A stretch of DNA of 64,000 nucleotides from [Synechococcus] sp. NIES-970. GTDB taxonomy: Bacteria; Cyanobacteriota; Cyanobacteriia; Cyanobacteriales; MRBY01. Below the pieces are notes generated by a model. The model worked only from the letters and a program-made list of their open reading frames with translations. It did not search any database and had not been told where the DNA came from. Of the stretch, positions 50,704-60,361 are shown in pieces. The stretch is taken from contig AP017959.1 of the NCBI GenBank assembly GCA_002356215.1, positions 1,876,195-1,940,194 of the forward strand. Direction: 5' to 3'. Numbering within the stretch: position 1 is the first letter of the stretch; every line of letters begins with the position of its first letter. Position numbers and translations under genes: made by a program.

Positions 50704-50846
50704 AGATCGTAGGGGGACGCGATGGCCTAAATAGTCGATGCTATTCTAATCAAACATTCTTGATAAAGCAATCCTTGATCTTTCTTTCGTCTGGCTCTTG
50801 CGCATTTTAAAGGTCTAATGCTAGATTTATATACTGTTTGCAGCTT

Positions 50847-50920
50847 GGACGTATAGCTCAGTTGGTTAGAGTACATCGTTGACATCGATGGGGTCACTGG
50901 TTCGAATCCAGTTACGTCCA
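50847..50920 (+). tRNA. tRNA-Val (GAC)
   Basis: Acceptor arms GGACGTA and TACGTCC pair perfectly. The anticodon loop TTGACAT gives anticodon GAC. The D-arm AGCTCAGTTGGTTAGAG and T-arm GGTTCGAATCC are standard. CCA is not encoded. Confidence 0.95.
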
Positions 50921-51196
50921 TACAATTAGAATCAGTAAATCTCCTTTCCTTTGTTTGTCTGAGCAAGGTTTTTCTGGGCTTGAATTTTCGGAGAGTCTTT
51001 GGGGCTGCACATGGCGCGCGTGGGGGCGATCGCCTTTTGGTGGATGGGTCTATTGCGGGAGCCCAAACCAGAAAATATGCAAAGGCGGTCAGCCTTAGGT
51101 TATATTGCTGCGTAACAAAATCCGCAAACTCTTTTATTATTCCTTAAAGTCAGGGTTCATTATCGTTGCGTTCCCCTCGCTTTTACCTACTGCTCT

Positions 51197-54100
51197 ATGA
51201 CGTTTCTCCAGCACCCTATCCAGGCCCAGGCATCGTTGCTCGATATTCTTGATCAACGAGCACAAACCCAAGCTGATGCCCAAGCCTATCTTTTTTTGCA
51301 AAATGGAGAAACTGAATCTGGGAGTTTAACCTACGGAGAATTGGCCCACAGAGCCAAGGCGATCGCCAAGCAGTTAGCGCCCTGGCGCGGCGAACGGGCT
51401 CTTCTGCTGTATCCCTCAGGGCTAGAATTTATCACTGCTTTTTTTGGTTGTCTCTATGGGGGGGTGATCGCTGTGCCAGTGTATCCCCCCAAACGTAATC
51501 AAAAATTATCGCGCCTGGTGGCGATCGCCCAAAATGCTGAGGCCGCCCTTGCCCTTACTACCGAGGCTTTTTTGCCAGATATTCAGCAAAAATTCACCCA
51601 AGATACCCACTTTGCCACCCTGACGCTCCTGGCCACGGACGGGATGGAAAATATCGGTGGTGAGTTTGAACCCCAGGCCGTTGCTGGGGAGGGTCTTGCT
51701 TTTTTGCAGTACACCTCCGGTTCGACGGGGACACCGAAGGGAGTGATGGTTTCCCACCACAACATTCTTCATAACCAGCGACTGATTCAAAAGGCCTTTG
51801 GTCATCACGAAAAGAGTATTGGGGTCGGCTGGTTACCCCTTTTTCATGATATGGGGCTAATTGGTCACGTTTTTCAACCCCTTTATGTGGGTTTTCCGAG
51901 TATTTTGATGCCTCCGGTGGCTTTTTTAAGTCATCCAGGCCGTTGGCTCCAGGCGATCGCCAAATACCGTGCAACCACCAGTGGTGGGCCAAATTTTGCC
52001 TATGATCTTTGCCTAGATCGTCTGACCGATGGCGACTGCGCCGCCCTTGATTTGAGCAGTTGGAGCCTCGCTTACAGCGGCGCTGAACCGGTGCGAGCCA
52101 GTACCCTGGAAAAATTCAGCGAAAAATTTGCTACCCATGGATTTCGCCCAGAGGCATTTTATCCTTGTTATGGCATGGCAGAGGCGACCCTGTTCATCAC
52201 TGGTGGTGACAAAACTAAAGCCCCCATCACCACAAAAGTGCTTGAATCAGACAACGTCTTTGTTAGTTGCGGTCAGCCTGCTCAAGATACTCAAGTGGCG
52301 ATTGTTGATCCAGAATCTTTCCTCCCCTGCGCTGAAGGGGAGACGGGGGAGGTCTGGGTCCAGGGCGAGAGTGTGGCCCAGGGCTATTGGCAGGCCCCCA
52401 TGGCTACCCGAGAAACCTTTGGGGCTTCCCTGACGCATCAGGGGAAACCTTTTTTACGCACGGGCGATCTAGGGTTTGTGAAGGCAGGAGAACTTTTTAT
52501 CACGGGTCGCTTAAAGGACTTGATCATCATTCGCGGCAAAAATCACTATCCCCATGACATTGAGTTGACAGCGCAACAGGCCCATCCAGCGCTGCGGGAG
52601 AACTGTGGGGCGGCCTTTACAGTAGAGGTTGATGGAACGGAAAAACTCATGGTTGTCCAGGAAGTGAAGCGCACTTTTCTCCGGAATTTAGACCCAGGGG
52701 CGATCGCCCAAACTGTCCGCCAGGCGATCGCCCAAAACCATGAACTCCAGACCTACGGCATTGTGCTGATTAAAACCGGTAGTATCCCCAAAACTTCCAG
52801 CGGTAAAATTCAACGACATCGCTGTCGCCAAGCCTTCTTACGAGATGAATTAGTGATTGTGGGGAAAAGTATTCTTGGGGAAAACAATGCCGAATATCTC
52901 CAGGCGATCGCCCAGGCGAAACAATCCCCCCAAACCCCACGTGAGCTCATCGATCAGCTGCGGGGACAATTGGCCCAAGCCCTTTCTCTCCCCCTAGAAA
53001 CCATTCAACCAGACCAACCCATTGCCGCTCTCGGTTTAGATTCCGTGCAGGTGGTGGAGATTAAGCACTATATCGAGCAACAATTTGACTTGACTGTGCC
53101 CCTAGAAAAGTTTTTTGAAGAGATTACCGTCTCCCAACTGGCCCAAGACATTCTCAATCTCTCCCAGCATCAACCCCCACAAAATATCACTTCTGCCAAT
53201 TCTCTCAATGGGCAACAGCCCAAGGCGTCCCCACAACATTCAGCCATTGATCTCGACGAACGGCTTCGCTTGGCCTACAAACCCAGTCGTAATGTTTTAG
53301 ATAAAGCACGGGAATTTAACCTGGCCGATCAATTGCGGGCCAATGACCTGTTGCCCTATTTTCGTGCCCTAGAACGCAACGAAGGGGCCACCTGTATTTT
53401 TGAAGGGCGCCAGCTGATTATGTTGGGCTCTAACAATTACCTGGGTCTAACCGCCGATATGCGAGTCCGGGAAGCGACTGCAAAAGCAGCCCTAGAAGAA
53501 GGGCCGAGTTTGACGGGGTCGCGTTTGTTAAATGGTTCTACCAAGCAACATCGAGCATTTGAGGAAAAATTAGCCGCCTTTGTGGGCCATGAAGATGCCC
53601 TCGTCTTCACCACAGGCTACCAGGCGAATCTGGGGTTTATTTCGGCCTTGATGAACGAAAATACGACGATGATCCTCGATAGCGAAGCCCACGCTTGTAT
53701 CTATGATGGGGCGTTTATGAGTCGCTGCAAGGTGGTCCAGTACCACCACAATGATCTCCAAGATTTAGAAGCAAAATTACGTCAAATTGCCCCCCATTCC
53801 GCAACGATGGTCACCATCGATGGGCTGTATTCTATGACAGGAGATATTGCCCCCCTTCCAGAAATCCGTGCGTTGTGCGATCGCCATGGAGCAACTCTAG
53901 CGGTAGATGATGCCCATGCCCTAGGAGTTCTCGGAAAAGCGGGCCGGGGAACCGAGGAACATTTCGGGATGATTGGTGGCAGCGATCTTCTCTGTGGCAC
54001 CTTTTCAAAAAGCTTAGCCTCTATTGGTGGCTGGGTTGCAGCGGAGGCAAAGGTCATTGACTGGATTCGTTTCAATGGTCGGTCGATGTTGTTTTCTGCC

Positions 54101-54478
54101 TCAATTCCCCCGACTTCCTTGGCGGCAGCTTCGACCGCGCTGGATATCTTAATCGCTGAACCCTGGCGCGTTCAAAAGCTCCATGAAAATGCTCAATATT
54201 GGCAGCAGGGATTGCAGTCCCTCGGGTTTACGGTGGGGGCGGCCCAAACCCCGATTATCACAGTGCATATTGGTGATGATTTTAAATGTATGCAGTTCTG
54301 CAAGGCCCTTCTGGATGCAGGGGTCTATGCCAATGCGGCGGTGTATCCGGCAGTACCACGCAATAAAGCGGCTCTCCGCACCAGTGTGATGGCCACCCAT
54401 ACCCGCGATCATCTGGATCAAGCCTTGGCAATTTTTGCTGAGGTGGGCCAGAGGTTTCAGGCTGAGGTCGAGGCTTGA
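51197..54478 (+). CDS. Fatty acyl-AMP ligase - acyl carrier protein - serine-palmitoyltransferase-like fusion
   Basis: The 1093-residue protein has three parts. Residues about 10-560 are a fatty acyl-AMP ligase with P-loop TSGSTGTPKG (173-182) and motif PKTSSGKIQRHRCR. Residues about 583-655 are an acyl carrier protein with LGLDSVQ, Ser616 being the phosphopantetheine site. Residues about 690-1090 are an alpha-oxoamine synthase with GSRLLNGST, FTTGYQANLGFIS, DSEAHACIYDG (His832), DDAHALG and GTFSKSL (PLP Lys938). The last part resembles serine palmitoyltransferase more than BioF or KBL. It would load an acyl chain on the ACP and condense it with an amino acid, most simply serine, to a 3-keto long-chain base. 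The next gene starts 2 bases downstream. Confidence 0.9.
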   Translation: MTFLQHPIQAQASLLDILDQRAQTQADAQAYLFLQNGETESGSLTYGELAHRAKAIAKQLAPWRGERALLLYPSGLEFITAFFGCLYGGVIAVPVYPPKRNQKLSRLVAIAQNAEAALALTTEAFLPDIQQKFTQDTHFATLTLLATDGMENIGGEFEPQAVAGEGLAFLQYTSGSTGTPKGVMVSHHNILHNQRLIQKAFGHHEKSIGVGWLPLFHDMGLIGHVFQPLYVGFPSILMPPVAFLSHPGRWLQAIAKYRATTSGGPNFAYDLCLDRLTDGDCAALDLSSWSLAYSGAEPVRASTLEKFSEKFATHGFRPEAFYPCYGMAEATLFITGGDKTKAPITTKVLESDNVFVSCGQPAQDTQVAIVDPESFLPCAEGETGEVWVQGESVAQGYWQAPMATRETFGASLTHQGKPFLRTGDLGFVKAGELFITGRLKDLIIIRGKNHYPHDIELTAQQAHPALRENCGAAFTVEVDGTEKLMVVQEVKRTFLRNLDPGAIAQTVRQAIAQNHELQTYGIVLIKTGSIPKTSSGKIQRHRCRQAFLRDELVIVGKSILGENNAEYLQAIAQAKQSPQTPRELIDQLRGQLAQALSLPLETIQPDQPIAALGLDSVQVVEIKHYIEQQFDLTVPLEKFFEEITVSQLAQDILNLSQHQPPQNITSANSLNGQQPKASPQHSAIDLDERLRLAYKPSRNVLDKAREFNLADQLRANDLLPYFRALERNEGATCIFEGRQLIMLGSNNYLGLTADMRVREATAKAALEEGPSLTGSRLLNGSTKQHRAFEEKLAAFVGHEDALVFTTGYQANLGFISALMNENTTMILDSEAHACIYDGAFMSRCKVVQYHHNDLQDLEAKLRQIAPHSATMVTIDGLYSMTGDIAPLPEIRALCDRHGATLAVDDAHALGVLGKAGRGTEEHFGMIGGSDLLCGTFSKSLASIGGWVAAEAKVIDWIRFNGRSMLFSASIPPTSLAAASTALDILIAEPWRVQKLHENAQYWQQGLQSLGFTVGAAQTPIITVHIGDDFKCMQFCKALLDAGVYANAAVYPAVPRNKAALRTSVMATHTRDHLDQALAIFAEVGQRFQAEVEA

Positions 54479-54480
54479 CC

Positions 54481-55287
54481 ATGCAGCATGTCATTATTAC
54501 GGGGGGATCTAGTGGGATCGGCTTGGCAATCGCCTGTCAGTTAGCCCGGCAGGGAGACATAAATCTTTCGATTATTGCTCGCAACCCCGCGAGACTCCAA
54601 GGGGCCAAAGAAGAAATTCAGCAAGCCTTTGGGACTCCCCAGCAACGGTGTTTAACCCTTGCGGCGGATGTTTCTCAACAGCCTGAAATTGCCCAGGCGA
54701 TCGCCCAGGCGATCGAAAAATTTGGCGCTCCGGGTATGTTGATTACTTCAGCAGGTATTGCCCATCCTGGTTATTTTCAAGAACTGCCTTTAGGCATTTT
54801 TGAGCAAACCATGGCGGTGAATTATTTTGGTACGTTGTACGCGATTCGCGCGGCTCTACCGGCCATGACTACCCAAAAACAGGGACAAATTGTGCTGATC
54901 TCTTCTGGGGCAGGTCTGGTCGGTTTATTTGGCTATACCCCCTACAGTCCGAGTAAATTTGCCCTACGAGGCTTGGCAGAATCCCTCCGGGGAGAATTAA
55001 AATCATTGGGGATCCGGGTGGCGATCGCCTATCCTCCCGATACTGATACCCCCCAACTGGCGGCCGAAAATTTGACAAAACCGCCGGAAACCAAGTTAAT
55101 TACAGGAACGGCCCAAATGTGGACAGCCCAGGCGGTGGCAGCCACGATTCTCCGGGGAATCCGTCGCCAACAGTTCGTCATTGCCCCTGGCCTCGAAATG
55201 CAACTGCTTTATCGTTTGCATAGCCTTTTCGCCCCCCTCCTGCAATGGTATTTTGATCAGTTGGTGGCCCGGGCAAAACCGGACTAA
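54481..55287 (+). CDS. 3-ketodihydrosphingosine reductase-like SDR
   Basis: The 268-residue protein is a classical SDR with TGGSSGIG (7-14), Asn114 in VNYFG, Tyr155 and Lys159 in YSPSK. Segments SSGAGLVGLFGYTPYSPSKF and the motif AYPPDTDTP (183-191) followed by ENLTKPPETKLI closely match eukaryotic KDSR (FVT1/TSC10), which reduces 3-ketosphinganine to sphinganine with NADPH. This fits the product expected from the upstream fusion. Two membrane-proximal hydrophobic segments near the C-terminus (about 232-262) also fit KDSR. The start is ATG 54481, 2 bases after the previous stop. Confidence 0.9.
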   Translation: MQHVIITGGSSGIGLAIACQLARQGDINLSIIARNPARLQGAKEEIQQAFGTPQQRCLTLAADVSQQPEIAQAIAQAIEKFGAPGMLITSAGIAHPGYFQELPLGIFEQTMAVNYFGTLYAIRAALPAMTTQKQGQIVLISSGAGLVGLFGYTPYSPSKFALRGLAESLRGELKSLGIRVAIAYPPDTDTPQLAAENLTKPPETKLITGTAQMWTAQAVAATILRGIRRQQFVIAPGLEMQLLYRLHSLFAPLLQWYFDQLVARAKPD

Positions 55288-55316
55288 ATTTTTGATTTTT
55301 TTGATGACCTCTTCCC

Positions 55317-57110
55317 ATGGAACCCCACCCCATGAACCATTCTGCGAAAACCATTGTCGATCTCCTGCGTCACCGTGCCGATAGCACCCCCGACCGCCTC
55401 GGCTATCATTTCATCTCCGGGGAAGAAGCGATTAAGCAGTTCACTTATGCTCAACTAGAACAGCAGGTGAAGGCGATCGCCGCCCATTTACAAACTTTTA
55501 TCAGTCTTGGCGATCGCATTTTATTGGTCTTTCCCTATGGAGCGGGTCTCGAATTTGTCGCTAGTTTTTATGGCTGTCTCTACGCCGGGGCGATCGCGGT
55601 AACGATCAATCCTAGCCGCAGTGACGATGCCATTGACAAACTCCTCGAACGGGTAGAAGACTGCCAAGCTACCGCGATTTTAACCACTCGCCCCCTCATT
55701 GATTATTTCCAAGGCAAGCTCACAAAGGCCCCCCTCCAAGCTGCGGGCCTCGCCCAGAGATTTAGCCAAATCAAAGTCGTTGCCATGGATGAAATCCCCC
55801 AGGCGATCGCCACCCATTGGCAAGTCCCGGATATTACCGATGAAACCCTTGCTTTCTTGCAGTACACATCCGGTTCCACTGGCAAGCCTAAAGGCGTAAT
55901 GGTTACCCATGGCAATGTCCTACACAATTCCGCGACTATCTACAAATCTTTTAACCATTGCCCCGAAAGCAAAATGGCCAGTTGGCTACCGATGTTCCAC
56001 GACATGGGGCTGATTGGTGGTGTGCTCCAACCCCTCTATGGCGGTTTTGAAACCTTCTTGATGTCTCCCGTTGAGCTGGTGCAGAAACCCGTGCGTTGGC
56101 TAGAAGTCATTTCCCAGTACCGCATCACCACCAGCGGTGGCCCGAACTTTGCCTACGATCTCGTTGCTCGACAAGTGACCCCAGAGCAACTGAAAAACTT
56201 GGATCTCAGCTCCTGGGATGTGGCCTACAGTGGTGCTGAAACAGTCCGGGCCCACACCCTTGAAAAATTCACCCAAACCTTTGCCCCCTGCGGCTTTCGC
56301 CATGAAGCCTTTTATCCCTGCTATGGTATGGCCGAAGCAACCCTCTTCATCAGTGGTGCCAGCACCAAAAAAGCACCTGTAATCCAGCACATCGCTGCTG
56401 AAGCCCTCGAACAGAATCAGGCGATTATTAGCACTGATGGTAGTCGCGGGATTGTCAGTTGTGGCTGGCCCTGGTTGGGGGATGAAGTGATCATCGTTGA
56501 CCCCGAGACAAAAACAAAACTCCCAGAAGGTCAAGTGGGAGAAATTTGGGCCGCCGGGAAAGGTATCGGCAAAGGCTATTGGGAACGCCCTGAGGCGACA
56601 AAAGAAACGTTTCAAGCTTATGTCGAGGGCCAAGGCCCCTATCTACGCACAGGAGATTTAGGTTTTCTAAAAGATCGAGAGCTTTTCATTACTGGGCGCA
56701 TGAAGGATGTGATGATTCTCTGGGGCCGCTATCGCTACCCCCAAGATATCGAACTTACCGTTGAACAATGCCACCCGGCCCTCCGTCCTTGTGCCGGCGC
56801 TGCTTTTTCTCTGGAGGTAGCCGATGAAGAGCGGCTGGTAGTAGTGCATGAATTAGAGCGCAGCTATGTGCGCAACTTTGACCTAGAAGAAATTGTGGGG
56901 GCCATTCGCCAGGCGGTTTACCAAGAGCATACCGTAGAAGTTTACGGCATTGCTTTACTAAGAACGGGTAGCATCCCCAAAACCTCCAGCGGTAAGATTC
57001 AACGACACGCCTGTCGCCAACAATTTGTGGATGGAACCCTCAATAGCGTCGCCGTATGGCGTTTGCCCATTACAGAGAGCAATGTTGCCGCCTTAGCGAA
57101 TAGCCTCTAA
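55317..57110 (+). CDS. Stand-alone fatty acyl-AMP ligase
   Basis: The 597-residue protein is a paralogue of the ligase part of the first fusion protein, with P-loop TSGSTGKPKG (184-193), WLPMFHDMGLIGGVLQPLY, SGGPNFAYDL, YGMAEATLF and PKTSSGKIQRHACRQ. Shared insertions place both in the FAAL group rather than acyl-CoA ligases. It has no carrier domain and would need the fusion's ACP or a free one. It probably activates the second fatty acid, the one that N-acylates the long-chain base, but no acyltransferase gene is adjacent. ATG 55332 is an alternative start. Confidence 0.9.
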   Translation: MEPHPMNHSAKTIVDLLRHRADSTPDRLGYHFISGEEAIKQFTYAQLEQQVKAIAAHLQTFISLGDRILLVFPYGAGLEFVASFYGCLYAGAIAVTINPSRSDDAIDKLLERVEDCQATAILTTRPLIDYFQGKLTKAPLQAAGLAQRFSQIKVVAMDEIPQAIATHWQVPDITDETLAFLQYTSGSTGKPKGVMVTHGNVLHNSATIYKSFNHCPESKMASWLPMFHDMGLIGGVLQPLYGGFETFLMSPVELVQKPVRWLEVISQYRITTSGGPNFAYDLVARQVTPEQLKNLDLSSWDVAYSGAETVRAHTLEKFTQTFAPCGFRHEAFYPCYGMAEATLFISGASTKKAPVIQHIAAEALEQNQAIISTDGSRGIVSCGWPWLGDEVIIVDPETKTKLPEGQVGEIWAAGKGIGKGYWERPEATKETFQAYVEGQGPYLRTGDLGFLKDRELFITGRMKDVMILWGRYRYPQDIELTVEQCHPALRPCAGAAFSLEVADEERLVVVHELERSYVRNFDLEEIVGAIRQAVYQEHTVEVYGIALLRTGSIPKTSSGKIQRHACRQQFVDGTLNSVAVWRLPITESNVAALANSL

Positions 57111-57118
57111 GAGATGCT

Positions 57119-58363
57119 ATGAAAGTCGCAATTATCTCGAGTACTTTCTTGCCTTCCCATGATGGGGTAAGCATTACCTTATTTGAGCGCCTCAAGGCAC
57201 TCTCTAATCGAGGGCATCAGGTTATTTGCTTTGTCTCTAGTTATCAAGAGGTGGCAGATATCTATCCCCGCTGGTCTGATTATGTGGGGGATTTGTTTGA
57301 AAATGTGACAATTGTGCCATTGCCGAGCGTTGCTTGGTTAGGGATTCCCCAAGAGCGTAATCCAAAACGGGGTAGCTTAGGGTTGCTAGAAATGACCTTA
57401 GGGGAGTTTGCGCCGGACTTAATTCAAATTGAGGAACCAGAAAGAGTTTGGACGACGCTTTTTACTTTGCCGGGGTGGTTGTATGCCCAGAAAAAGCAGA
57501 TTCCTTACATTGGCTGCTATCGGACAAATTTTGTAGATTATCTCCAGGATTACGCCCCTGTTTGGTTGGTTTATCCGGCAAAATTGATGGCCATGGTCTT
57601 AACCCGTCGTCTGTATAAAAAATGCTCTGTAACTTTAGTGGGTAGTGATTTTGTGGCGGAACGCTTGAATCAGTGGCGATTACCTAATGTGGTGTGTATG
57701 CCAGTGATTGGCCCGCCACAAATTGCCAATCCACAGATGTTGAAACAGGCTGATTTTTTTCAACAGCACTATGGACTGTCTGATCTTGATCAACGGGTAA
57801 AGGTTTTATTTTTAGGGCGACTTTCTCCGGATAAAAATTGGGCGTTTACCCTCCAATATTTGAGCGCTTTACGGGGGCAAAGCTTAACTCAGGATTTTGT
57901 GCTGCTTATTGCGGGCCGGGGCGAATTAGCTGAGGCGATCGCCCAGAGTGAATTTGCCCAAACATTACCGACAGTGATGTTGGGAGAAGTGCCCCATCAG
58001 CAAGTCCCTCGGTTATTAGCAAATGTCGATCTCCATGTAACCACTTCCCTGAAGGAAACCTTTGGGCGGACGGTCCAGGAATCTCTTTATGTGGGGACAC
58101 CAGTGCTAGCCCCAGACTGTGATTGGGCACGCAATTTAATAGAACCCGAGGTGAATGGCTATCTTTATTCTGCCGATAGTGGTGAGGATTTTATTGAAAA
58201 ATTAGCCCAATTAATTGATTCCCCAGGCGATCGCCAACTTTTGCAAAATAACATCCAACGCTATCACCAACAACGAACAGCCCAACCAGACCCCAGCCAA
58301 CGGTGGATTGACTATCTAGAAAGTCAAGTACACCTAGCGCAACAAAAGCTCAGGCATGGTTAA
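57119..58363 (+). CDS. GT4 family glycosyltransferase
   Basis: The 414-residue protein has a GT-B fold with N-terminal IISSTFLPSHDGVSITLFERL and the C-terminal donor motif TSLKETFGRTVQESLYVGTPVLAPD (E-x7-E type). It resembles lipid glycosyltransferases of the GT4 family such as SqdX and MgdA, which act at the membrane surface. In this cluster it probably glycosylates the sphingoid lipid. It starts 8 bases after the second ligase and overlaps the convergent flippase by 30 bases. Confidence 0.87.
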   Translation: MKVAIISSTFLPSHDGVSITLFERLKALSNRGHQVICFVSSYQEVADIYPRWSDYVGDLFENVTIVPLPSVAWLGIPQERNPKRGSLGLLEMTLGEFAPDLIQIEEPERVWTTLFTLPGWLYAQKKQIPYIGCYRTNFVDYLQDYAPVWLVYPAKLMAMVLTRRLYKKCSVTLVGSDFVAERLNQWRLPNVVCMPVIGPPQIANPQMLKQADFFQQHYGLSDLDQRVKVLFLGRLSPDKNWAFTLQYLSALRGQSLTQDFVLLIAGRGELAEAIAQSEFAQTLPTVMLGEVPHQQVPRLLANVDLHVTTSLKETFGRTVQESLYVGTPVLAPDCDWARNLIEPEVNGYLYSADSGEDFIEKLAQLIDSPGDRQLLQNNIQRYHQQRTAQPDPSQRWIDYLESQVHLAQQKLRHG

Positions 58364-59671
58364 AATACGCCGCTGGAGTTCGCGCCAAGTCCCTAGTAGA
58401 TTTAGGCTAAACCCAAAGCCATTGGCAATCACAGTCGCAATGCCAGCCCCCAAGGCACCATGATAATAAGTGAGTACCACCAGGAGCGGGAGATAAACGA
58501 GCAAAATAGCGGTGGCATTATTTCGCAGTGAAATCTGGGGTTTATCCATCGCAAATAGAGCCGGCTCTAAAAGATTATTGCCCATCGTAAAAATCCCAGC
58601 CATCATCAGCAGCACCAGGGGGCCATAGGCAGCAGTGAAATCAGCCCCCATCGCGTAGTAGAGGAGCCATTGCCCAGTCAAGAGGATGGCAAGCAAAAGG
58701 ATGGCCCCAATGCCTTGCAGGATGCGGCCCAGTTTCCATAGGAGTTTGCGGAACTGTCGCCAGCGGCTTTGGGCACTGAGATGAGCGAGTTCTGGGTAAA
58801 CAGATTGGGTAAAAAGCAACGCTAAATCCCTGAGGGGCGTTGAAAATTCATACCCTGCCCGAAAAAGGGCTACAGCACTGGGGTTGGCAAAGACTCCCAC
58901 AATCAATGGACTAAGACTAAGGGCGAGGGGTAAGGACGCATTGAGGTTAGAGACAAGACAAAATTTCAAAAGCTGGGGCTTGATGGTGAGTAACGGTTTT
59001 AAGGAGCGATTGATTTGAGACAGAGCGCCGCGTTTATAGGCTTCTCGCCATCCCCAAAACAGTAAAATCACCGCATTTAAGACTTCCCCCAGGAGCCAAG
59101 CGAACAGATAGGCACTCAGGGGGGCTTCGAGACGAAAGGCGATCGCCGTACCCAGTAGCCGCGTGAGGGGAGCCACCATTTGCAGGATGGCTAAAAGATC
59201 AAAGCGATCGCAAAGCCGCAGTAAGCCCATCGGCGTTGAGCTGAGGGTCAACAAAATTAAAAGACTCAGACGCTGTACATCCTGAACCATCGGTAGATCC
59301 CAGCCCACCAAGGGCCCGACTAGGGGGGCCGCTCCCACCGCAATCAAATATCCGCCCAAAGAGCCTAAAAGATCAAGGCAGGTAGTCAGTTTAAGTAAAT
59401 TTTGAAAACTGAGATGGTCTTGATGCTTGAGATAATCAGCGCCGTAACGAATCAGGGCTTGCCAGGATTGGAAAGTCGTTAGACCAATGATCAGCTCCAT
59501 ATAAGCGCGCACTAGAATCAGCTGACCAAAAGTGGAGACACCGAGGGCATGGGCAGTCAAACTGAGATAGCCGAAATTGGCGATCGCCATCAAAACTTGA
59601 CCACAGAGCAACCAGCTGAAATTTTTTAAAATTTTACGGAGAATGCGGTCAGCCCAAAAAAACTTAGTCAT
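58334..59671 (-). CDS. Wzx/MATE-like flippase
   Basis: The 445-residue protein has about 12 membrane helices and the polysaccharide-flippase (MOP superfamily) start NFSWLLCGQVLMAIANFGYLSL. It probably moves a lipid-linked sugar or glycolipid across the plasma membrane. The gene runs against the cluster, ending inside the glycosyltransferase gene, and shares a short divergent promoter region with the hydroxylase gene. Confidence 0.87.
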   Translation of the reverse strand: MTKFFWADRILRKILKNFSWLLCGQVLMAIANFGYLSLTAHALGVSTFGQLILVRAYMELIIGLTTFQSWQALIRYGADYLKHQDHLSFQNLLKLTTCLDLLGSLGGYLIAVGAAPLVGPLVGWDLPMVQDVQRLSLLILLTLSSTPMGLLRLCDRFDLLAILQMVAPLTRLLGTAIAFRLEAPLSAYLFAWLLGEVLNAVILLFWGWREAYKRGALSQINRSLKPLLTIKPQLLKFCLVSNLNASLPLALSLSPLIVGVFANPSAVALFRAGYEFSTPLRDLALLFTQSVYPELAHLSAQSRWRQFRKLLWKLGRILQGIGAILLLAILLTGQWLLYYAMGADFTAAYGPLVLLMMAGIFTMGNNLLEPALFAMDKPQISLRNNATAILLVYLPLLVVLTYYHGALGAGIATVIANGFGFSLNLLGTWRELQRRILTMPELLLR

Positions 59672-59728
59672 TAATTCTTGATGAAATAAAGCTTTGATCC
59701 CAAGGGTCTAGCTAAGACATTGCAAAGC

Positions 59729-60361
59729 ATGAGCAATGCAGGGGAGATTATAATACCAAAGTTTACAAAGTGGCCCCAGGTCAGCACCCGGCCACCTGTT
59801 GTGCCCATGGAGATTTCACTTAAAGTGCCAGTGCCATTTATGGAAATTTTGCTACCCTTGTTGATCTTTAGTCTCTCCTTTATTTTTGGAAGTTTCCTTG
59901 AATATTGGATTCATCGTGCTTTCCATGCCCACCCAAAGCATTTCCTCAAGCGTATTTTTCCAAAACTAGGCCAAGGTCATACCCAACACCATATTGGGGG
60001 TACAGGCCAAGGTTTTTTGTGGGAATTTCGTAATTATGTCGTGGGCACCAGTGTGGTGATGTTTCCTTTATTTCTCCATTCTTTCACCCTGGGAGTGAGC
60101 TGGTTTCTGGGCTGTTTTATCTATGCTGCCTTTGCCGCCTATGCCCACCAACTACAGCATGACAATCCAGTGAAATGTTTCTGGCTGCCGATGCCTGTCC
60201 ACTATGTCCATCACAAATACAACCAGTGGCATCATAATTTCGGCATTGGTGTGGATTGGTGGGATCGCTTATTTGGGACCTATCGTCCGAAATCAGATTG
60301 GCTTACAGAAAAAGAACAACGTACTGCTGGCCAAAAGCTTTGGCAAATTAAATGGCTTTAA
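59729..60361 (+). CDS. Fatty acid hydroxylase / sterol desaturase superfamily protein
   Basis: The protein has two to four membrane helices and the di-iron histidine set of the superfamily: HRAFHAHPK, GHTQHH, HQLQHDN and HYVHHKYNQWHHNFG. These enzymes hydroxylate or desaturate lipid chains. Sphinganine C4-hydroxylase and fatty acid 2-hydroxylase are members, which suits the neighbouring genes. The start could be ATG 59729, 59807 (GTGCCC-ATG) or 59840; 59729 gives 210 residues. It ends before the ndhD terminator. Confidence 0.85.
   Translation: MSNAGEIIIPKFTKWPQVSTRPPVVPMEISLKVPVPFMEILLPLLIFSLSFIFGSFLEYWIHRAFHAHPKHFLKRIFPKLGQGHTQHHIGGTGQGFLWEFRNYVVGTSVVMFPLFLHSFTLGVSWFLGCFIYAAFAAYAHQLQHDNPVKCFWLPMPVHYVHHKYNQWHHNFGIGVDWWDRLFGTYRPKSDWLTEKEQRTAGQKLWQIKWL

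Follow-up and report, generated by a model that had tools for sequence, protein, structure and literature searches.

We analysed a 64,000-nucleotide stretch, hereafter the window, of the genome of [Synechococcus] sp. NIES-970 (contig AP017959.1, positions 1,876,195 to 1,940,194 of the forward strand; genome size, 3.12 Mb). Six genes at window positions 51197-60361 had been assigned in a sequence-only reading to a sphingoid-base and glycosphingolipid-like pathway. All six open reading frames (ORFs) of this proposed pathway were found in the ORF listing of the window. The first encodes a fusion of a fatty acyl-AMP ligase (FAAL), an acyl carrier protein (ACP) and an alpha-oxoamine synthase (AOS) of the serine palmitoyltransferase (SPT) type, and the second a short-chain dehydrogenase (SDR) resembling KDSR, the 3-ketosphinganine reductase. 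Judged from these sequences, the cluster probably makes a sphingoid-type amino lipid that would then be glycosylated. The features are as follows.

51197-54478, plus strand: FAAL-ACP-AOS fusion of 1093 amino acids, consisting of an acyl-AMP ligase, an acyl carrier protein and an SPT-type AOS (ORF, domains, NCBIfam and PDB matches, tree)
52952-53146, plus strand: ACP domain of the fusion, amino acids 586-650, PF00550, with the serine in GLDS (coordinates computed by hand)
53291-54454, plus strand: AOS domain of the fusion, amino acids 699-1086, with the histidines, aspartate, lysine and arginine of the pyridoxal phosphate (PLP) pocket (NCBIfam range, residue table; coordinates computed by hand)
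54481-55287, plus strand: KDSR-like SDR of 268 amino acids (ORF, PDB match, motif, co-occurrence)
55317-57110, plus strand: second fatty acyl-AMP ligase, FAAL2 (ORF, domain, NCBIfam, FAAL tree)
57119-58363, plus strand: predicted GT4 glycosyltransferase (ORF, domain, PDB matches)
58334-59671, minus strand: Polysacc_synt (Wzx-type) flippase, PF01943 (ORF, domain, orthologues in six of the six genomes of the genus)
59840-60361, plus strand: FA_hydroxylase of 173 amino acids, start moved from 59720 (domain, orthologues)
50846-50921, plus strand: tRNA-Val (GAC) upstream of the cluster, given for context (Rfam scan)

In the fusion, Pfam domains for AMP-binding (amino acids 19-398), ACP (586-650) and aminotransferase I/II (739-1078) follow one another, and the other genes match adh_short (SDR), AMP-binding (FAAL2), Glycos_transf_1 (GT4), Polysacc_synt (flippase) and FA_hydroxylase (hydroxylase). 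The first four genes are separated by 2, 29 and 8 bases, as had been noted, if the SDR starts at ATG 54481; the frame also stays open back to a TTG located 6 bases upstream. The convergent GT4 and flippase genes overlap by 30 bases. ORFs and domains thus agree with the previous description except at the start of the hydroxylase, where the ORF from TTG 59720 is over-long. The true start is probably 59840, because in two related genomes (G058 and G083) the orthologues start with the methionine that corresponds to ATG 59840, and alignments extending upstream of it run into stops. Scans for promoters and terminators yielded fewer sites than shuffled sequences (6 versus 10.0 and 11 versus 13.8, respectively), and an Rfam search of the window at the gathering threshold detected two tRNAs only.

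The placement of the AOS domain in the bacterial SPT clade is well supported by sequence comparison, and the earlier proposal that the fusion would make a 3-keto long-chain base is backed by both the tree and the bit scores. In a phmmer search of solved chains in the PDB, the top relative was the Sphingobacterium SPT (354 bits); further scores were 273-263 bits for Sphingomonas SPTs, at most 247 for chains named KBL, 238 for a dual AONS/KBL chain, 218 for CFAT and at most 188 for BioF. The organism names of the SPT entries, including Sphingobacterium multivorum for 3a2b and 8guh, are those that we take them to carry. The best NCBIfam AOS model was SerpalmtaseCFB (435 bits), followed by BetaP (395) and bioF (358). 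In a 39-row IQ-TREE analysis, which included neither ALAS nor CFAT sequences and from which two rows with long branches in a first quick tree (G433_AOSlike and Nonomuraea) had been removed, eight cyanobacterial fusions formed one group (100/100) nested in a 19-row clade (98/95). This clade takes in all eight rows labelled as bacterial SPTs, three of which are solved enzymes and the others labelled by similarity, and the KBL and BioF rows fall outside it. The asparagine of the GSRxxNG motif (N106 of SpSPT) is present in eight of the eight fusions and in seven of seven SPT-labelled rows, including three solved SPTs, and in none of the two KBL, three BioF and five rows of a second AOS type described below. 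Six genomes that belong to the phylum but not to the class (G001, G007, G016, G021, G041 and G343) have AOSs that group with KBL, and these were not counted as SPTs.

The fusion AOS and the Sphingobacterium multivorum SPT (3a2b, 8guh) share 44% identity, the PLP-pocket residues and the sequence GSRxLNG; the latter enzyme stands alone, whereas the window AOS is fused to a FAAL and an ACP. By bit score, it is nearer to the Bacteroidota-type SPT than to the proteobacterial SPTs, a point that the tree leaves unsettled.

Several observations weigh against so specific a placement. The domain does not reach the curated cut-offs of the NCBIfam SPT models (435 of 640 bits for SerpalmtaseCFB, 395 of 500 for BetaP and 310 of 670 for AlphaP) or of any other listed AOS model. 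Residues equivalent to K265, H159, H234, D231 and R390 of SpSPT occur in all eight cyanobacterial fusions, but also in all 39 rows of the residue table, and hence do not discriminate; H234, D231 and R390 are taken here to be pocket residues. H159 and K265 are named as functional residues of SPT in excerpts of PMC8895605. N106 is missing by eye in LCB2 and also in two members of the SPT clade, Aureispira and Rubrobacter, and it is found in the rows of Priestia, P. veronii and Nonomuraea, of which Priestia and Nonomuraea are homologues of unknown function. At the position of R378 of the Sphingomonas SPT, the fusion AOS has a valine, as does the Sphingobacterium SPT. A very improbable alternative is a duplicated biotin-pathway BioF, or a KBL, that has no lipid role. 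This idea draws on the common superfamily and on the scores of the bioF model and the AONS/KBL chain given above, but the same genome encodes a separate BioF-like protein (36% identical to the fusion AOS), and neither the fusion to FAAL and ACP nor the tree placement fits it. We rejected a BioF/KBL paralogue on the strength of the tree, the bit scores and the presence of a distinct BioF-like gene.

In the proposed pathway, the fusion would activate a free fatty acid to acyl-AMP and load it on its own ACP, and the AOS would condense the acyl-ACP with an amino acid, for which L-serine is the likeliest candidate, with release of CO2, giving a 3-keto long-chain base. Use of another amino acid (alanine, glycine or cysteate), which would lead to a 1-deoxy or sulfonated amino lipid, appears rather improbable. 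The choice of amino acid cannot be fixed with certainty from sequence, the AOS lies under the curated SPT cut-off, and Spt is able to use alanine according to PMC11334938; against this, CFAT (218 bits) and KBL (247) score well below the Sphingobacterium SPT (354), and the tree, which is without CFAT sequences, and N106 put the AOS with SPT. 

A division of labour of this kind has precedents. In Caulobacter, an acyl-ACP synthetase, a specialised ACP and SPT (AasR-AcpR-SPT) cooperate, as described in excerpts of PMC9386255, and the window fusion joins the equivalents in one protein. An unfused counterpart is seen in an Escherichia coli-type locus (L114), in which, by annotation, a FAAL gene is followed by those of an epimerase, an ACP and a class I/II aminotransferase; its aminotransferase falls in the SPT clade of the 39-row tree, and its FAAL is 31% identical to the window FAAL. 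In the window, a KDSR-like SDR takes the place of the epimerase, and no match to the Epimerase domain (CerR type) was seen in the cluster, a comparison made for its six genes and not genome-wide.

This adjacent SDR would reduce the 3-keto group, and its prediction as a KDSR-like reductase of a 3-keto long-chain base is likewise well supported, as is the succession of long-chain base formation and reduction. The top hit among 594 matched PDB sequences was TSC10 (PDB 8jat), a 3-ketosphingosine reductase of the eukaryotic type (98 bits), with which eight aligned cluster SDRs share the motif ENxTKP. The SDR family was detected at E <=1e-45 in 88 of 388 genomes of the order, an even draw from the larger order, and 84 of these 88 also carry an AOS (7 of the SPT type and 77 of the second lineage). 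Either AOS type occurs in 104 of the 388 genomes, and the association with the SDR is strong by Fisher's test (p 4e-60), also when counted by genus (36 of 38 SDR genera with an AOS versus 47 of 149 genera overall, p 2e-22). That the AOS types make long-chain bases is itself a prediction on which this co-occurrence test leans. The best solved relative and the co-occurrence together favour the reduction step that the sequence-only reading had assigned to this gene.

Here too, there are findings on the opposite side. TSC10 leads by 10 bits only, the next SDR scoring 88 and other SDRs 77-88 bits; ENxTKP is lacking in the SDRs of AOS loci in Sinorhizobium and Pseudomonas, of which the one encoded on the Pseudomonas plasmid shows hardly any relationship to the window SDR (39% identity over 83 amino acids). 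Twenty of the 104 AOS genomes gave no SDR match, and 4 of the 88 SDR genomes (G118, G527, G577 and G632) gave no AOS match, such absences being soft, since four (both AOS scans) or six (SDR scan) candidates were scored per genome; moreover, the Fisher tests ignore shared ancestry. The SDR and AOS genes are adjacent in G229 and G101, 1.65 Mb apart in G255 and on different contigs in G157.

A survey of cyanobacterial genomes had been suggested along with the pathway. SPT-type AOSs were found at E 1e-80 in 7 of the 388 genomes, comprising all six of the genus and Calothrix SC01, and a scan of named genomes for the fusion returned Picosynechococcus PCC 7117, which is a genus-mate of the window genome, a Limnothrix metagenome-assembled genome (MAG), the Cyanothece SIO2G6 MAG and Calothrix SC01. 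The order fusion-SDR-FAAL2-GT4 is kept in the window and in five other genomes of the genus, and therefore chance does not account for the arrangement. A scan of 386 genomes with the whole fusion, in which two candidates per genome were scored, returned for the most part other FAALs and does not enter these counts. The Limnothrix sp. RL_2_0 MAG (G445) has one extra gene between FAAL2 and GT4, which encodes a 675-amino-acid protein with epimerase and FAD_binding_4 domains (L054 16235-18262). In Calothrix rhizosoleniae SC01 (G648), the fusion lies at the end of one contig and the SDR on a different one. In the fusion of the Cyanothece SIO2G6 MAG (L041 1-3906), ACP and AOS are separated by a luciferase-like monooxygenase domain. 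Comparison with G058 gave ratios of non-synonymous to synonymous substitution (dN/dS) of 0.082 for the fusion, 0.123 for the SDR, 0.057 for FAAL2, 0.056 for GT4, 0.144 for the flippase and 0.039 for the hydroxylase, next to 0.042 and 0.067 for two neighbouring genes; these ratios are rough, being derived from a single pair with a partly saturated dS of 0.8-2.9.

The steps beyond the reduced base are less firmly drawn. FAAL2 would activate a further acyl chain, which a separate transferase would most likely attach to the amino group. Acyl-AMP ligase motifs are seen in it by eye, the FAAL model (PRK05850 fatty-acid--AMP ligase) matches with 445 and 434 bits (cut-off 775), and no CoA-ligase model ranks above the FAAL model among the 25 best NCBIfam models. 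In a 16-row tree, the FAALs of other cyanobacterial AOS clusters split into two groups (SH-aLRT 96), of which one holds FAAL2 and the other the fusion FAALs. The activation that had been assigned to FAAL2 thus agrees with its motifs, but its use for an N-acyl chain lacks a partner: no N-acyltransferase was recognised among the cluster genes, and a single query with YghO of the E. coli SPT locus gave a noise-level match in the window genome (E 0.265), so that we discarded a YghO-type enzyme as having no credible match there. Elsewhere in the genus, the query matched in G434 (6.1e-5) and G211 (2.9e-4) and in none of the other three of the six genomes; an unrelated transferase may carry out this step. 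YghO is presumably the ceramide synthase of the E. coli locus.

The GT4 enzyme would add a sugar to the product, and the Wzx-like flippase would carry it across the membrane. Both families fit the sugar addition and export that had been proposed, which are plausible at most, as is a glycosphingolipid as the end product. Matches of GT4 to the PDB are weak (best, 28 bits), and in G083 a different GT4 occupies the same slot (L051 11807-13042), with 37% identity to the window GT4 and 51% to that of the G157 cluster, which suggests head-group swapping. A flippase orthologue is present in all six genomes of the genus. The hydroxylase is also found in all six and always neighbours the flippase gene, with a truncation by a contig end in G445; the pair is, however, unlinked from the core in G211, where it lies on another contig, and in G434.

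This part of the cluster brings in a serious rival, although we consider it an unlikely one, namely that the amino lipid made by AOS and SDR serves a surface polysaccharide as its dedicated carrier or anchor, as proposed for rhizobial rkp-1, instead of being a bulk membrane glycosphingolipid, with GT4 starting the glycan and the flippase exporting it. PF01943 is a polysaccharide family, and the exchange of the GT4 in G083 is of a kind often seen with glycan genes. A locus on Sinorhizobium pSymB, which we take to be rkp-1 with RkpG/RkpH-type products, consists of a 7.5-kb gene (annotated as SDR family and judged PKS-like, i.e. polyketide synthase-like, by size), an AOS and then an SDR that shares 42% identity with the window SDR over 264 amino acids, with a capsule gene nearby. 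According to PMC4881576, the products of rkp-1 synthesise, and also modify, a lipid carrier used in secreting the capsule. The Sinorhizobium locus nevertheless differs from the window cluster in its PKS-like partner, the nearby capsule gene, an SDR without ENxTKP and an AOS of another lineage, with 34% identity to that of the window. Among the window ORFs, no polymerase or capsule export gene was noticed by eye, the rest of the window being unannotated. 

The hydroxylase may be an optional chain-modifying enzyme. It occurs in 7 of 7 genomes with an SPT-type AOS and shows an odds ratio of 1.9 (p 0.007) with any AOS. It is also present in 118 of 381 genomes that have no SPT-type AOS and hence is not pathway-specific; this spread, 125 of 388 genomes in all, ruled it out as a pathway marker and leaves its membership of the pathway, as originally claimed, only plausible. 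Its predicted structure, of moderate confidence (pLDDT 73), gave no structural match at E 0.001; chains of yeast Scs7p were the top matches (E 0.5-0.9), and the resemblance in fold is only suggestive. In other cyanobacteria, FA_hydroxylase genes are located between two FAAL genes (L079 7272-7802 and L089 6173-6820).

A product other than a lipid was also considered, in which the AOS would free the acyl chain as a specialised amino ketone, such as an alkaloid- or pyrrole-type metabolite. AOS, ACP and AMP ligase genes stand together beside PKS genes in Thioclava and Methylocystis, perhaps for other metabolites, which speaks for this option and against a sphingoid lipid. We consider it quite improbable for the window cluster, because neither a PKS nor a non-ribosomal peptide synthetase is among the six genes, the SDR and a GT4 are retained in all six genomes of the genus, and 84 of the 88 SDR genomes carry an AOS type.

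Beyond the genus, a second AOS lineage was detected at E 1e-90 in 97 of the 388 genomes, none of which is among the seven SPT-type genomes, and 77 of the 97 also contain the KDSR-like SDR. Clusters of similar make-up, with FAALs, ACP, AOS and either SDR or GT4, were found in other cyanobacteria (L079, L095 and L096), and the SDR family is also located next to LCB2-like AOS genes (L056 and L079). One reductase family thus accompanies two AOS lineages, and therefore both may make the same kind of 3-keto product. The second-type AOS of G229 matched best Arabidopsis LCB2a (237 bits), Sphingobacterium SPT (232) and human SPTLC2 (231) in the PDB, the species of the LCB2a and SPTLC2 entries being as we assume, and bioF (349 bits, below its cut-off) and SerpalmtaseCFB (320) in NCBIfam. 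In the 39-row tree, this lineage groups with two LCB2 rows (100/99), whereas in the first quick tree, which was without LCB2 rows, it grouped with cyanobacterial BioF (SH-aLRT 89). Between the two trees, the LCB2 rows were added and G433_AOSlike and Nonomuraea dropped, so the placement depends on sampling.

The nearest plasmid relatives of the second AOS include those of Planktothrix, Paraburkholderia and Pseudomonas, which lie in or beside PKS genes, and of Sinorhizobium; the Pseudomonas and Paraburkholderia enzymes share 53-57% identity with the second cyanobacterial AOS and 32-35% with that of the window. The lineage recalls SgaB, the plasmid AOSs being likened to it by gene order alone. 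PMC12134224 describes PfSgaABC of Pseudomonas fluorescens MYb115 as combining an AOS that was shown to have SPT activity and to prefer serine (SgaB) with a proposed KDSR homologue, which is unusual for bacteria; its chain comes from an iterative PKS, whereas the window cluster would use a FAAL.

Cyanobacterial membranes are usually described by a handful of glycerolipids, and the sequence-only reading had taken them to contain no sphingolipids. That statement is incomplete. PMC8895605 mentions two such lipids reported with no genetic basis, an acetylsphingomyelin in Scytonema julianum and, in Moorea producens, a cerebroside; it also records that Nostoc punctiforme, whose sole AOS is BioF-like, has no unbranched sphingolipids. 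A 3-ketosphinganine reductase of Bacteroides is described in part of PMC9278070, and Spt-like proteins from Black Sea MAGs of 38 phyla in part of PMC11334938, where 'cyanobacteri' occurs in the main text in a reference only. The FAAL review PMC11837247 contains no occurrence of 'oxoamine' or 'sphingolipid'. Judged by title and abstract, no cyanobacterial sphingolipid gene cluster was found among the matches listed from the open-access literature, which does not prove absence.

The window cluster is a variant of known sphingoid-lipid pathways, to which a wider lead is attached. We tentatively raise the possibility, in which our confidence is limited, that sphingoid-base synthesis is widespread but overlooked in cyanobacteria, in about a quarter of the sampled genomes of the order, and uses one scaffold of FAAL, ACP and KDSR-type SDR with two AOS lineages, one of the bacterial SPT type in Picosynechococcus and its kin and the other of the LCB2-grouping type elsewhere. 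If true, the as yet unexplained ceramides of cyanobacteria would gain genes that could account for them, and light would be shed on where eukaryotic SPT originated, a question for which the LCB2-like lineage offers additional sequences. Given the co-occurrence of AOS and KDSR, sphingoid lipids would become a general cyanobacterial trait that can be tested, and the conserved SPT-clade enzyme together with the eukaryotic-type reductase allows a direct genetic test, the set being carried by Picosynechococcus PCC 7117.

The second lineage also occurs in fused form. In G101, a second-type AOS is part of a FAAL fusion, and the accompanying SDR is 63% identical to the window SDR and is one of the eight that have ENxTKP. 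Near this fusion, at L056 14003-15151 and 16478-17749, there are two weak matches of the monogalactosyldiacylglycerol (MGDG) synthase/GT28 type, the first of which is below the Pfam cut-offs.

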